In this document: positions 56,588-64,000 of the stretch, piece by piece
Numbering within the stretch: the stretch's first letter is position 1
Layout: every line of letters begins with the position of its first letter
DNA from: Bacillota bacterium
GTDB taxonomy: Bacteria > Bacillota > Bacilli > Bu12
Assembly (NCBI GenBank): GCA_014896485.1
Contig: JADBKH010000028.1
Coordinates: 1-64,000 of the forward strand
Reading direction: 5' to 3'
DNA length: 64,000 nucleotides
Translations under genes and position numbers: made by a program
The notes under the pieces: generated by a model
What the model was told of the DNA's origin: nothing
Database searches by the model: none
What the model saw: the letters and a program-made list of their open reading frames with translations, nothing else

Positions 56588-58178
56588 CGTCCTCATCACC
56601 GATCATTTTGCCGATGAGGGACTCAAATTGCTTGCCGCAGACCCGCAGATCTCTGTCGCATATCACCCGGGCCTGACGGGAAACACCTTGTGGGAAGCCT
56701 TGCAAGAGGCAGACGGTTGGATCATCCGCAGCCAGACTCGGGTCACCGCAGAGGCATTGGAACATGCTCCCCGCCTACGGGCCATCGCCCGTGCCGGAGT
56801 CGGCGTTGACAACGTGGATCTCCCGGCCGCAACGCAACGTGGCATACTCGTCTTCAATGCACCGGAAGGCAACACAATCTCAGCAGCCGAACATACGTTG
56901 GCGATGATGTTGGCCCTGATCCGCCACATTCCACAAGCCGATCACTCTCTCCGCTCAGGACGTTGGGAGCGGAATGCATTTGTCGGTGTTGAACTGCGCG
57001 GGAAAACGTTGGGACTGATCGGTGCGGGACGGGTCGGCTCCGAAGTGGCCCGGCGCGCGCAGAGCTTTGAAATGACGGTAGTGGCTTACGATCCGTTTCT
57101 CACCGATACAAGAGCTTCTCAGATGGGCATCCGTAAAGCGGATTTGCACGCTGTACTGCAAGAGGCGGATTTTCTCTCTGTCCATACGCCGCTTACCCCA
57201 GAAACCAAAGGCATGATCGGAACAGCAGAACTACGCACCGTCAAGCCAACCGTTCGGATCATCAACTGTGCACGTGGAGGCATCATTGATGAAGCTGCAC
57301 TTGCCAAGGCGTTGCAAGAAGGACGCGTGGCTGGTGCAGCAATCGACGTTTGGGAGGAAGAACCGCCCTTCTCCTCTCCCTTGTACCAGGCGCCTCATAC
57401 GGTGATCACTCCGCATCTGGGTGCTTCTACCTATGAAGCACAGATCAACGTAGCCATCGATGCAGTCAAGGAGCTGCTGCACGCCCTGCATGGGCAACCA
57501 TTTCGCAATGCCGTCAACCTTCCGCCGATCCCAGCCGAACGTTTCACACAACTACAGCCGTATCTAGACCTGGCGACTCTTCTCGGAAAACTGATGGGGC
57601 AACGTTGTGTAGAGATTAACGAGGTGATCGTCACTTATACCGGTACGTTTAGCGGTGAAACTTCTTCCAACAGTGATGTTGCTTGGTGCACGCGTCAGCT
57701 CTTGTCCGCTCTTTTTGCACGTTACATGGGAGAGCGCGTCAATCTGGTCAATGCATTGGCCCTGGCTGAACGCTATGGCATCAAAGTCACCGAGGAATAT
57801 AACCGAACTACGGAACCTGGGGAGCCCTTTCAAATGCGGGTCCTGGTCAAACACCATGACAGAGAACAAGCTTCGGTGGCAGCAACGCGACTGGGCAACG
57901 CCATCCACTTGGTCGAAGTAGACGGCTACCCGTTGGACTTGGTTCCTGAAGCAAACATGCTGCTTTTCTCCCATACCGACCAGCCGGGCATTATTGGACG
58001 GATCGGCAGCCGGCTGGGTGAAGCCGGTGTCAATATTGCCTCGATGCAAGTTGGCCGGCGCTCCCCAGGCGGACAGGCAATTGGCGTCCTCACGATTGAT
58101 GCACCGATCGACACCCAACTATTAGAAGAATTGGCTACAGTCCCTGGTGTTGCCCAGGTGACTCAGATCACCTTGTAG
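56580..58178 (+). CDS. serA: D-3-phosphoglycerate dehydrogenase
   Basis: MYNVLITDHFADEGLKLL; ARAGVGVDNVDLPAATQRGILVFNAPEGNTISAAEHT; GLIGAGRVGSEVA; C-terminal ACT domain. Confidence 0.96.
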   Translation: MYNVLITDHFADEGLKLLAADPQISVAYHPGLTGNTLWEALQEADGWIIRSQTRVTAEALEHAPRLRAIARAGVGVDNVDLPAATQRGILVFNAPEGNTISAAEHTLAMMLALIRHIPQADHSLRSGRWERNAFVGVELRGKTLGLIGAGRVGSEVARRAQSFEMTVVAYDPFLTDTRASQMGIRKADLHAVLQEADFLSVHTPLTPETKGMIGTAELRTVKPTVRIINCARGGIIDEAALAKALQEGRVAGAAIDVWEEEPPFSSPLYQAPHTVITPHLGASTYEAQINVAIDAVKELLHALHGQPFRNAVNLPPIPAERFTQLQPYLDLATLLGKLMGQRCVEINEVIVTYTGTFSGETSSNSDVAWCTRQLLSALFARYMGERVNLVNALALAERYGIKVTEEYNRTTEPGEPFQMRVLVKHHDREQASVAATRLGNAIHLVEVDGYPLDLVPEANMLLFSHTDQPGIIGRIGSRLGEAGVNIASMQVGRRSPGGQAIGVLTIDAPIDTQLLEELATVPGVAQVTQITL

Positions 58179-59137
58179 GCACTCTCTCTACCGAAAGACC
58201 TACCGCGGAAAGGGGGATGGGTACAGCTAGTCGTACGCCAATCCCCAAATTTGAGTATGCTTCTCTCATCGCCTCGGCAACTTTTCGGGCACGCAGACCT
58301 GGTTCGCAGAGTGCAATAACCGCAGGACCAGCCCCAGAGAGTGCCGCCCCATAAGCGCCCGCCTGCAGGGCAGCCGCTATTGCTTCAGAAAAGCCTGGCA
58401 ACAGCACACTGCGGTAGGGTTGGTGCAGTTGGTCGCGCATCGCAGCCCCGAGCAAGGCGTACTTTCCGCTGACAAGTGCACCCACCAAAAGCCCCGCATG
58501 CTGTAAATTGAAAATGGCTGCTTGCCTTTCGTACGATGCAGGCAATGCTTGGCGGGCAAGCTCTGTAGAAAGGGCGTAATCAGGAAGTGCAATAACAGCC
58601 ACAAGATCCGATCGCGGTGAAAATGTGAGATAACTCCATTCTCCATCTGCACTCTGTGCTGCCACTGCGATACCCCCTTGAAGTGCGGGGAGGACATTGT
58701 CGGGGTGTCCTTCTAATTGCAGCGCCATTTGGGCAAGCTTGTCCATGGAAAAGGGAAAGCCAAGCAGCGCATTGGCGCCGGCCAATCCGGCAACCAAAGC
58801 GGTCGCGCTCGAACCAAGTCCGCTCATCAGTGGAATTTGATTCTTCTCCTGTAAATGTAGCCGTACCGGCAACGGGGCACCCACCGTCTGGAAAAGGTGC
58901 TTCAGACTTTGAAAGACGCTATTGCGTTGCGGATCGCGTAACGTCGTCACCTCTGCCCCTTCTCCCATTGACTGCTACGGACCAGCCCTCTTGTGGCGAA
59001 TCTTCCACTGGCGATACGGTAAAACAAAATTCGTTCCACAGGTCAAGTGCTAGACCAACGGAATCAAACGCTGGACCGAGGTTTGCAGAAGTGGCCGGTA
59101 CACGCACGCGCACCGTATGTTGCTGAATTTCAGACAC
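58168..59137 (-). CDS. thrB: Homoserine kinase, frameshifted at 58964-58966 in this sequence
   Basis: [35 protein letters not shown]... in one frame, [15 protein letters not shown]...[19 protein letters not shown] in another; removing one G from GGG restores VNGEGAEV. Confidence 0.94.
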
Positions 59138-60185
59138 GACGTAATGCCTCGGACAAATGATAGGGATCGACATCGAGGTGCTGGATCTCAACTTGGGCAG
59201 TCTCTAGGGCAGTCTGTGGGTCCTTCAAGCCATTTCCAGTCAGGACAGCCACCACTGTCTCTCCCGTTCGGATTTGTCCAGTAGTAAGGGCTTGGCGGAT
59301 ACCGGCAATAGCGGCGGCAGAGGCGGGTTCTGCAAAGATCCCTTCCGTGCGCGCAAGCATACGATAAGCATCGAGAATGGCATCGTCATCGACGGCATCG
59401 ATGCTTCCTCCTGACTCTCGTGCTGCATTGACCGCGCCTTGCCAACTGGCCGGATTGCCAATGCGGATCGCTGTCGCCACTGTCTGGGGATCGTCAATTG
59501 GCGTACCTTGCACAATCGCCGCTGCACCTTTCGCTTCAAAGCCCAGCATCCGGGGCAGCCGCTGAGCCTTACCCGCCTGTAGATAGGCACGAAAGCCTTT
59601 CCAGTAGGCTGTGATGTTACCGGCATTGCCAACGGGTAACGCCACCACGTCTGGCACTTCTCCCAAAGCATCGACCACCTCAAAGGCTGCTGTCTGCTGA
59701 CCCTCCAACCGGTAGGGGTTGATCGAGTTGACGATGGCCACACCTGCTTGATCCGCTTGGTTGCGCACGAGTGCCAATGCCTTGTCGAAGTTGCCTGCAA
59801 TTGCAAAGACTTCAGCGCCGTAAAGAACTGCCTGGGCCAGCTTGCCCAACGCAACTTTCCCCTCTGGAATGACAACCACTGCGCGCAGGCCAGCACGCGC
59901 TGCATAGGCAGCTGCTGAAGCAGAAGTATTTCCTGTAGAAGCGCAAAGCAACGTCTGCGCACCTTCTTCGATGGCATGTGCAACAGCCATCACCATGCCA
60001 CGATCTTTAAAAGAACCGGTCGGGTTCAACCCTTCGAGCTTTAGAAAAAGCCTAATCTGCCAGCTTTCCGAGAGATGCGATGCATAGACGAGGGGTGTAT
60101 TGCCTTCCAACAAAGTTAGGGAGGGGGTCTTTTCCGTCACAGGGAGGTACGGAGCATAAGCAGCCAAGACGCCCGGCCAACTCAT
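59130..60185 (-). CDS. thrC: Threonine synthase
   Basis: [55 protein letters not shown]. Confidence 0.96.
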
Positions 60186-61480
60186 CGCTCTTCCTCACCT
60201 TCCAGCGCAAAGCAGTTGGCTACCCGCTCAACTTCGGCTAGTCCACTTAAGCGCTGCATTGCATCATCGAGATGGATTGCGAGACAAGGATGCGTGACCA
60301 AGACCAGCTCAGCCTTCCCATCCACCGGGCGCTGGATAACTGTCCGCAAGCTGATGCCGTATTCGGCCAACAGTCCCGCAACCGCAGCAAGCACGCCTGG
60401 GCGATCGGTTACTTCGAGGCGCAAGTAATAGGCCAAACTGCGCACCGTATGGGTAAGGATAGGTTTGCGTTGTAGACCGGTTTGTATCCACCTCCCCGAT
60501 GCACTGCTTCGGAGGTTGCGTACCGCTTCAACAATATCGGAGATGACTGAACTCGCCGTCGGCAACGATCCTGCTCCAAGTCCGTAAAACATCGCTTCAC
60601 CAACGGCATCGCCTCGGACAAAAATGGCGTTATGAACCCCCCGAATTGCCGCCAGAGGATGCTTTTTCGGCAGCAACACCGGACCGACACGCACCTCGAC
60701 GCCTTCAGGTTCCTCCGTTGCCACGCCAACCAGTTTGATGACATACCCAAGTTCTTTCGCATAGAGAATATCCCGTGCATTGACCGAGGTTATTCCGGTT
60801 ACAGAAACGTCCTCCAACTGTACGTGCGCGCCAAAAGCGATGGCCCCCAAGATGGCGATCTTACGAGCAGCATCCAGTCCTGTAATATCTGCGGTAGGAT
60901 CCGGTTCCGCATATCCTCGGGCAATCGCTTCCTGCAGTACCTCGGCCATATCTTTTCCCTGTTCCGACATTTCTGTGAGAACGTAGTTCGTTGTACCATT
61001 GACGATACCCAGTACTTGTTCAATCCGATTGGCCGACAAACTCTCTGAAAGCGGTCGAATGATCGGAATCCCACCGCCGACGCTTGCTTCAAAGAGCAGA
61101 TCGAGGCGCCTTGTTTCGGCCAAATCCATCAAGTCAGCCCATTCGGCGGCCAAAAGATCTTTGTTGGCCGTGACTACGTTCTTCCCATTTTTCAATGCAC
61201 GACGAATAAATGCCCCCGCCGGCTCAATACCACCAATAACTTCTACGATAATGTCGATCTTTGGATCATCGAGTACTTCTTCGGGGTTATCGGTCAACAC
61301 TCCTGCAGGGAAGTCCACAGCTCTCGGCTTGTTCACATCACGGACCAGCACACGCTCCAACATCACCGGCGCTCCGGCTCGCCGAGCAATGATAGAAGCA
61401 TTCTGTTGCAAAATTTTTACAACTCCGGAACCGACTGTGCCACAACCCAACAGTCCAACCCGCACCGCCTCTTGCACCAA
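60182..61480 (-). CDS. hom: Homoserine dehydrogenase (start approximate)
   Basis: [44 protein letters not shown]-terminal ACT domain. Confidence 0.95.
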
Positions 61481-61544
61481 CCGAATTGCTCCTCTCCGGC
61501 GTTTCACTCGTTCCTATCCTCATCTCACGAAAAAGCATACGAAA

Positions 61545-61578: not shown

Positions 61579-61896
61579 TTACCAGTACCGCAGCATGGCT
61601 TTAGCTTCCTCAGACATCCGATCGGGTGTCCAGGGCGGATCCCAGACCAAAGCCACTTCTACCTCTTCAACGCCAGGTAACAAGAGCAACGCGGAACGTA
61701 CCTGCTCTTCCAGCTCGTCATACAACGGGCAACCAATGGCGGTCATGGTCATATCGATGTGGATTTTCTTTCCATCCTCTGAAAAATCAACGTTATAGAT
61801 AAGCCCCAAGTCGACGATATTGAGTCCCAGTTCGGGATCGTAAACGTCCTTGAGAGCTTCCATGACATCCTCTTGCGTTGCGCGTACGACACCCAT
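61579..61896 (-). CDS. MIP18/DUF59 family iron-sulfur assembly protein (SufT/PaaD-like)
   Basis: VMEALKDVYDPELGLNIVDLGLIYNV; MTAIGCPLYDELEEQV; VALVWDPPWTPDRMSEEAKAML. Confidence 0.9.
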   Translation of the reverse strand: MGVVRATQEDVMEALKDVYDPELGLNIVDLGLIYNVDFSEDGKKIHIDMTMTAIGCPLYDELEEQVRSALLLLPGVEEVEVALVWDPPWTPDRMSEEAKAMLRYW

Positions 61897-61953
61897 CCAC
61901 TTCACCTCCTAGCTACCCTACCTATTATACCCTTTCCAGAAAGGATCGTCTCC

Positions 61954-62721
61954 TTAACCAAGGGCATCCGCCTCTTCATCAGCTCGTTCCAATCCGATCG
62001 CTTCTTCCATCGTATAAAACCCCTTGGGCTTGTCCGAAAGCCATTGTGCTGCAAAAAGAGCTCCTTCTGCAAAAGCAGCACGGTCGACCGATTCGTGGAC
62101 AATACGGATCGTTTCGTGATTGAGACCAAAAACCACTTCATGGCGCCCGACCACACTGCCCACACGAAGGGAGTTGATGTAGCGGTCCGGATCCAGGGCG
62201 AGCGCTTCTGCCAGACGGAGTGCCGTTCCCGAGATCTCCGCTTTCTCACGGTAATGTTCTTCGACGATCTCGACATCGGCCTGCGGAACCAACTTCCGGA
62301 GATTTTTGGCCGCCTGCAATACGAAGTTTACACCAAGCGTAATATTAGGGGAATAGAGCACAGCTGTCTGCTGGGCAAAGTGTCGTAGGCGTTCCAAATG
62401 AATCTGATCGTACTTGGAGACTGCCGAAACAACGCGTATACCCTGTTCAGCTGCAGGCGCGTAGATATCCACCGACTGTGGCGCGGAAAAATCAATGATG
62501 ACATCGACCGGATGTTCCTTAAAAAAGGCCGAAGGGTCGATGGCGAAAGCGCAATAGATTTGTCCCACGGGCTGTCCGCTTCCCAAAAGCAACCCTGCAT
62601 ACGTACCCACGTCTTGTTCTGTACGGCGCAAGACCCATTCCAGACTGAAGGATTGTTCCTTCAGCAAGGTATCTGCGACCATTTTGCCGGTCTTTCCAAA
62701 GCCGATCAGACCCACCCGCAT
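61954..62721 (-). CDS. dapB: DapB-family (4-hydroxy-tetrahydrodipicolinate reductase-like) oxidoreductase
   Basis: MRVGLIGFGKTGKMVADTLL; VDVIIDFSAPQSV; YSPNITLGVNFVLQAAKNL; EEHYREKAEISGTALRLAEAL. SD AAAGGAGG before ATG at 62721. Confidence 0.82.
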   Translation of the reverse strand: MRVGLIGFGKTGKMVADTLLKEQSFSLEWVLRRTEQDVGTYAGLLLGSGQPVGQIYCAFAIDPSAFFKEHPVDVIIDFSAPQSVDIYAPAAEQGIRVVSAVSKYDQIHLERLRHFAQQTAVLYSPNITLGVNFVLQAAKNLRKLVPQADVEIVEEHYREKAEISGTALRLAEALALDPDRYINSLRVGSVVGRHEVVFGLNHETIRIVHESVDRAAFAEGALFAAQWLSDKPKGFYTMEEAIGLERADEEADALG

Positions 62722-62756: not shown

Positions 62757-62790
62757 AAAAAAGACCCACACGAAACCGGGTCCGCCTTTG
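62757..62790 (-). terminator. Intrinsic terminator of the riboswitch expression platform
   Basis: Minus strand GACCC-GGTTTCGTGT-GGGTC-TTTTTT. Confidence 0.75.
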
Positions 62791-62945
62791 GCGATTTGTC
62801 AGCGCACGTATACGCTGTGCTTCCCGGCAACGCTTACGAGGTTAGCTGACGGGCTCGGGTGGCACGCTTCACCCTTCCGACACAGATGGATTCGCCCCAA
62901 TCACTCGGTTCCCCCGTTTTCCCTTCAGGGAAATTCAGCGGACTG
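62757..62945 (-). ncRNA. ydaO/yuaA-type cyclic-di-AMP riboswitch (aptamer core about 62831-62943)
   Basis: Minus strand CCGCTGAATTTCCC...GGGGGAACCGAGTGATTGGGGCGAATCCATC...GGAAGGGTGAAGCGTGCCACCCGAGCCCGTCAGCTAACCTCGTAAGCG, the hallmark conserved segments of this class. Confidence 0.93.
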
Positions 62946-62983
62946 GACAAGTTTTTGACACCTTCAACATAGCAAGCAATAAA

Positions 62984-63012
62984 ATGCTATCACAGATCTC
63001 TGCTTACGTCAA
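62984..63012 (-). promoter_or_regulatory. Sigma-A-type promoter driving the riboswitch transcript
   Basis: Minus strand TTGACG-N17-TAGCAT with TGA directly before the -10 box (extended -10). Confidence 0.6.
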
Positions 63013-63088: not shown

Positions 63089-64000
63089 CTACAAGGTTTG
63101 CCGGACGGTGGCAATCGCGGTTGCTCCATTTTGAAAATGGTAGAGCCATTGAATCAACGCCAAAACAAGCGAAGCAAAGGCCACAACTATCCGCGTGACA
63201 AAACCGTTAATGCCAAAGTAAAAGCCTTCACGACGTGCGTGTGTACATACCTCATTTTCATCTATGATGTCAGACAGCAGCACATCGGGCGAAACCAACA
63301 TCCCCGAAAGACCGATTCCAAGCACTGCGGTCGTGGCCAAGGCTACAAAATACCTTTCGACAAAAAAGGGGATCAGGACCACCATGAAAAAGGAGATAGC
63401 AAGCATTAGGGCTTGACGCGCCCCAATGCGTCCGACGATCGGTGGCCAGCCAAGAACGGCCATCGGCAATGCAACAAGTAAAACCGCAAGCATAAGAAAC
63501 GAACGCTGTAACGGTACCTCAATACCCAGCGTAAATTTCGCGAAGTAGTTGATGATCAATGAAAGCCAAGCAAAGACGAATTGAACGAAAAACAGGCGAC
63601 AATATAGAAATTAAACAAATAATTCTGAAATGTTTCGTTTAATGCAGCTTTCGCCTTGAGCGAAAACTGGGCATAGGTAGGATTTTCCTGGGCTTCCCAA
63701 GCAGACAGGAGCAACGTAGCAGCAGCAATCGTTCCAAAAAGAGCCCCCATTCGCGACCATCCGCCTAGCCAAACCGCCACCGATTGGGTCAGGGCCACAC
63801 CCACCACCAAGGCTAAAATCCCAAAAGCCTGGCGTAAGGCAGAGACTGCAGCACGTTGTTCGGCCGAAGAAAACATCTCCTGAAAAAGTGCAGTCCAATT
63901 GAGCACGGTCAAGGTATAGAAACTGTCGAAACAAAACGTAACGACACCCAACTGGACGGCCATGGGCAGTAAGCTTTGAACAGGTGGCGTCCACGTCAGC
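63089..64000 (-). CDS. GPH-type MFS sugar/cation transporter, N-terminus beyond window, frameshifted at 63588-63592
   Basis: LTWTPPVQSLLPMAVQLGVVTFCFDSFYTLTVLNWTALFQEMFSSAEQRAAVSALRQAFG... and IINYFAKFTLGIEVPLQRSFL...PDVLLSDIIDENEVCTHARREGFYFGINGFVTR; one extra T at TTTTT gives CFFVQFVFAWLSLIINYFAKF. Confidence 0.82.

Follow-up and report, generated by a model that had tools for sequence, protein, structure and literature searches.

The closest described systems are those of White et al. 2022 (PMC9337991), who reported a tandem Na+-I/c-di-AMP riboswitch before a dapB-annotated gene in Acetivibrio cellulolyticus, interpreted by them as serving lysine/peptidoglycan or osmoprotectant supply, and a tandem Na+-I/c-di-AMP switch before ablA in Dehalobacter. 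The Dehalobacter c-di-AMP switch was tested and found to act by termination as an OFF switch, with c-di-AMP lowering read-through to <5% (PMC9337991). Given the report by White et al., a dapB-annotated gene under c-di-AMP control is nothing new, and the novelty of the locus examined here is smaller than an earlier, sequence-only reading of this DNA had implied. In the literature consulted, in which older ydaO target surveys were not covered, we found no report of a distinct DapB paralog clade as a recurrent c-di-AMP target, nor did searches on DapB paralogs, or on c-di-AMP riboswitches of Negativicutes, bring up anything relevant. Among ydaO targets, dapB may already be listed by Block 2010 and Nelson 2013. 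Riboswitch targets can reveal the jobs of uncharacterised genes.

Infernal comparison of the window (the whole 64-kb stretch of DNA analysed) with Rfam gave a match to RF00379 (c-di-AMP, ydaO/yuaA) at 62950-62816 on the minus strand, with 86.3 bits (E=1e-18) against a gathering score of 38 bits. The alignment covers model positions 1-134 of 134, i.e., a complete aptamer. This is the sole Rfam match at gathering threshold across the entire window, and thus no Na+-I aptamer was found upstream of the c-di-AMP aptamer at that threshold. The sequence-only reading had assigned the RNA to the ydaO/yuaA class from signature motifs on the minus strand; the motifs are all present, and the significant full-length match bears the assignment out. 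In an alignment of 20 aptamers, the window aptamer keeps every invariant core column, 96.3% of cells in the published secondary structure are paired (none of 500 shuffles was as good, and slid controls gave 36-52%), and 12 of the 26 pairs show double-sided changes. Its score is lower than those of many relatives' aptamers. The source genome encodes two DAC-domain (diadenylate cyclase) proteins, and c-di-AMP is therefore likely made there. Taken on its score, intact core and covariation, the window RNA is a genuine riboswitch of the c-di-AMP class, ordinary for that class, and should bind the class ligand.

Other RF00379 matches occur in the source genome. The second strong one (73 bits, L002:1501-1633, corresponding to G000:C1:69165-69297) lies about 130-150 nt ahead of genes for the molybdenum cofactor (mobA-like and radical-SAM, moaA-like), which is unexpected for a target, and has a transposase-like gene upstream. 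Matches at L003 (46.6 bits) and L004 (36.2 bits, below the cut-off) precede LysM and Hydrolase_2 cell-wall hydrolases, a classic target of c-di-AMP riboswitches.

A consensus scan found a promoter-like site of the sigma-70 type at 63012-62984 on the minus strand, TTGACG-N17-TAGCAT with a TG that extends the -10; its position fits the leader, and it would place the transcription start at about 62977. The site matches the consensus at 9 of 12 positions, a level of agreement close to background (2 found vs 1.1 expected). On the other side of the aptamer, a pattern scan and hairpin energy point to an intrinsic terminator at 62783-62757 on the same strand, a GGACCC/GGGTCT stem with an 8-nt loop and a T run. 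Its 22-nt hairpin (62783-62762, about -9.8 kcal/mol) starts ~33 nt past the aptamer end, and the pattern is also near background, with 3 found vs 1.7 expected in shuffled sequence. Both elements, already proposed from the sequence, are believable because of their order and position around an unambiguous aptamer and not because of their scores. Downstream of the terminator follow, as had likewise been proposed, the Shine-Dalgarno sequence AAAGGAGG (62736-62729, minus strand) of the DapB-like gene and its ATG at 62721. The 94 nt between aptamer end and ATG hold the predicted terminator and the right side of a predicted antiterminator, that is, an expression platform.

The predicted antiterminator is a 7-bp pairing, including 5 G-C pairs, between GUCCGCU (62943-62937), which includes the 5' strand of aptamer P1 (CGCU), and GGCGGAC (62786-62780), which overlaps the left arm of the terminator, all on the minus strand. 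GUCCGCU is the best partner of the terminator's left side in the whole leader, and the pairing was equalled in 62 of 5,000 shuffles of the segment. The antiterminator excludes both P1 and the terminator, and the ligand should therefore promote termination (OFF). When abundant, c-di-AMP would bind the aptamer and keep P1 (CGCU/AGCG) closed; the GGAC left arm would then be free, the terminator would form and transcription would end ahead of the gene. At low c-di-AMP, GUCCGCU would instead pair with GGCGGAC, blocking the terminator and allowing the gene to be transcribed. A fall in c-di-AMP typically goes with osmotic or potassium stress. The unconstrained minimum-energy fold of the leader has the terminator formed and P1 not formed, and switching is therefore assumed to be kinetic; we infer both its direction and its kinetics in the window RNA.

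Expression platforms vary among the relatives, with a terminator in the window and several Negativicutes, and elsewhere a Shine-Dalgarno sequence next to the aptamer (within ~20 nt of its end) or a stretch pairing with the Shine-Dalgarno sequence in place of the terminator. These latter arrangements would suit a switch that is translational, or ON. For the window switch we regard this as very improbable, because it has a T-run terminator ~33 nt past the aptamer, its predicted antiterminator overlaps P1, and the tested Dehalobacter switch turns transcription OFF by termination (PMC9337991).

The gene under the switch (61954-62721, minus strand) encodes a protein of 255 aa, which we call DapB2. 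That the target belongs to the DapB family, as the sequence-only reading stated, is well founded: Pfam DapB_N and DapB_C (2.4e-28) are both above cut-off, as is TIGR00036 (137.8 against a cut-off of 122), and the AlphaFold2 model (pLDDT 90.5) has the DapB fold, with structure 4ywj at rank 1 (TM 0.83). The canonical GTTG nicotinamide loop and HHxxKxDAPSGT are, however, absent from the window protein, which has SAVSKY and HYREKAEI-SGT instead. All 46 DapB2 rows aligned share A100, S102 and Y104 at the canonical GTTG loop (A[IV]S-x-Y), E155, an F or Y at 157 where canonical rows have their second histidine (HH -> H[FY]), and a one-residue deletion in DAPSGT; since the HH motif was used to extract the canonical comparison set, the GTTG comparison alone is unaffected by selection. 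The catalytic H156 and K160 are kept, as are S164 and T166 (SGT), and these together with the GxGxxG loop argue for DapB2 as an NAD(P)H-dependent reductase. In a maximum-likelihood tree, the 46 rows are set apart by a single branch, 2.14 substitutions per site long and supported at 100/100. The nearest relatives of the window protein are 44-55% identical and are spread over Verrucomicrobiota, Negativicutes, Bacteroidota, Thermodesulfobacteriota, Actinomycetota, Acidobacteriota and a few Bacilli.

A canonical DapB is encoded elsewhere in the source genome, on contig G000:C63, with GTTGL and EMHHDQKRDAPSGTA, adjoining genes that resemble methylglyoxal synthase and birA. Among 20 genomes searched, 18 have exactly two DapB_C matches and the other two have one each, one of these being a control without DapB2. 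From its sequence and this company, the window gene is best described as a second, divergent paralog and not the housekeeping dapB. No c-di-AMP aptamer was found at any of 18 canonical DapB loci, including that of the source genome. Two of the 18 (L113 and L107) have a lysine riboswitch (RF00168) nearby, and none was found near the DapB2 loci scanned; the C. difficile dapB1 operon also has a lysine riboswitch (PMC11477304). The two paralogs thus appear to be under different signals.

Association of the aptamer with DapB2 recurs. DapB2 is rare in Bacilli (5 of 401 genomes), and three of the five carriers, namely the window, L104 and L105, have the aptamer directly upstream. It is more frequent in Negativicutes (24 of 201 genomes), where 13 carriers (G810, G811, G816, G823, G834, G844, G851, G853, G890, G914, G926, G934 and G1005) have RF00379 directly upstream on the same strand. 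The remaining 11 Negativicutes and two Bacilli carriers have no such aptamer, and the one DapB2 found among 392 Clostridia genomes has none upstream. With 67 aptamers in 25 genomes scanned (about 2.7 per genome), an aptamer <=400 nt upstream in the right direction would, by our own estimate, be expected by chance roughly 0.005 times over 29 genomes, vs 16 seen, these 16 cases coming from related genomes and so not being independent, though they span two classes. The c-di-AMP aptamer is therefore recurrently associated with DapB2 in Negativicutes and Bacilli, and the examination of homologous leaders in relatives that the sequence-only reading had proposed comes out in favour of the association. 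Judged from these sequences, what c-di-AMP recurrently controls would be a divergent paralog, and not obviously DAP supply.

As to what DapB2 does, the sequence-only reading had linked the switch to DAP/peptidoglycan or dipicolinate supply. Dipicolinate is made by dipicolinate synthase from the DapA product, ahead of the DapB step, and DapB would therefore compete with dipicolinate formation and not supply it; we reject this role on pathway grounds. The link to DAP and peptidoglycan also fares poorly, since a separate canonical DapB without a c-di-AMP aptamer is present and the window gene is a paralog with altered nicotinamide and substrate loops, all of which argues against a simple DAP role. 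In its fullest form, this alternative would have DapB2 be an ordinary DapB isoenzyme (HTPA reductase) through which the switch matches the supply of DAP, lysine and peptidoglycan to turgor. It draws on the TIGR00036 score and the best structure matches, which are DapB, on the kept H156, K160 and SGT, on a dapA-type gene directly upstream of the riboswitch at L153, on the aspartate-family genes hom and thrC downstream in the window, and on the reading of the Acetivibrio dapB as lysine/peptidoglycan supply by White et al. (PMC9337991). Yet nearly every DapB2 carrier has a separate canonical DapB, the three loop changes are fixed across phyla, and the stem branch is long, and we consider an isoenzyme unlikely.

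Downstream of dapB2 in the window, on the same strand and with short gaps, profile matches identify a SufT/PaaD-like Fe-S assembly protein (FeS_assembly_P, 61579-61905), possibly the next gene of the transcript, and the possibly co-transcribed homoserine dehydrogenase (hom, 60182-61507) and threonine synthase (thrC, 59130-60185). The true target could then be the whole dapB2-sufT-hom-thrC run, with c-di-AMP in this lineage gating the flux through the aspartate family to homoserine and threonine. But this neighbourhood is not conserved in other carriers and there is a TATAAT hexamer in the gap that follows dapB2, which makes such a reading rather improbable. Two further genes of the window appear in two frames. 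A GPH/MFS-type symporter gene upstream of the riboswitch (63089-63999) is split near 63556-63590, by a frameshift or an assembly error, and a homoserine-kinase-like gene after thrC (58168-59191), its identity judged by eye from the translation, is apparently divided into 58919-59191 and 58168-58968.

A comparison of neighbourhoods across carriers found no stable functional partner near DapB2. Genes for DUF389-type membrane proteins recur beside dapB2 in Negativicutes (L152 by Pfam match, L150 and L167 by similar sequence). That DapB2 produces a compatible solute or a precursor of one, or tunes its production, e.g., for a lysine-derived osmolyte, in parallel to the c-di-AMP and Na+ switches at lysine aminomutase ablA, is possible although we would not call it likely: ablA and dapB are osmotic genes under such switches (PMC9337991), and DapB2 mostly stands alone behind a leader of its own, but no osmolyte gene was found as a conserved neighbour. 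The boldest reading, to which we give less than even odds, is that DapB2 is an unrecognised enzyme family with a new substrate, used in osmotic or envelope stress and turned on when c-di-AMP falls. If so, some dapB annotations under riboswitches for c-di-AMP or Na+ would in fact be DapB2. In our main reading, the most likely role of DapB2 would be a stress-time reduction connected with envelope or osmolyte metabolism close to the aspartate family.

Some dapB2 genes are preceded by another conserved leader element of ~100 nt, CCUUCUCAAA..CUG..CAUGCAGGAUGAAGGUAGC..ACAGUUUUAAGGAGG, predicted to fold so as to pair with the Shine-Dalgarno sequence. It lies just upstream of dapB2 at L171-L177, L153, L155, L157, L159, L162, L165 and L168, has no Rfam match, and precedes dapB2 in 7 among 383 Negativicutes genomes, with one weak partial match in addition. 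It is a possible second regulatory RNA, with thin covariation. In one Negativicutes genome dapB2 is present twice, once (L168) with the new element only and once (G810:C6:3157592-3158469) with the c-di-AMP aptamer only. In two Negativicutes genomes, c-di-GMP-I riboswitches lie just downstream of dapB2 (L149:1183-1267 and L165:1046-1130) and probably belong to the next gene.

Overall, we think it probable that the window holds a transcriptional c-di-AMP OFF switch controlling a divergent DapB2 reductase, a recurrent target with a stress-time role. That DapB2 shares a c-di-AMP switch in two classes, and canonical dapB does not, implies that the c-di-AMP (turgor/envelope) regulon includes an enzymatic step yet to be studied. 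Annotating DapB2 as dapB would suggest direct gating of DAP supply by c-di-AMP, which is probably wrong.

Compared with known systems, the window RNA shares with the RF00379 class the complete aptamer, the invariant core, the covarying helices and the predicted P1-based antiterminator/terminator logic, whereas its target gene is unusual. Like the Acetivibrio tandem switch, it is a c-di-AMP switch upstream of a dapB-annotated gene, but the former has a Na+ aptamer, for which the window has no counterpart at the Rfam threshold, and the Acetivibrio gene may be either canonical DapB or DapB2. The OFF logic proposed for the window agrees with that of the Dehalobacter switch, although the antiterminator there is described as the right shoulder of P1 and here would involve the 5' strand of P1. 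The lysine riboswitch is similar in that it, too, controls a DapB-family gene, but it occurs near canonical DapB and not near the scanned DapB2 loci. Finally, DapB2 shares with DapB (4-hydroxy-tetrahydrodipicolinate reductase) the fold, the Rossmann GxGxxG, the catalytic H and K and the SGT, and differs from it in the GTTG loop, the second His and the DAP, usually as a second copy beside canonical DapB.
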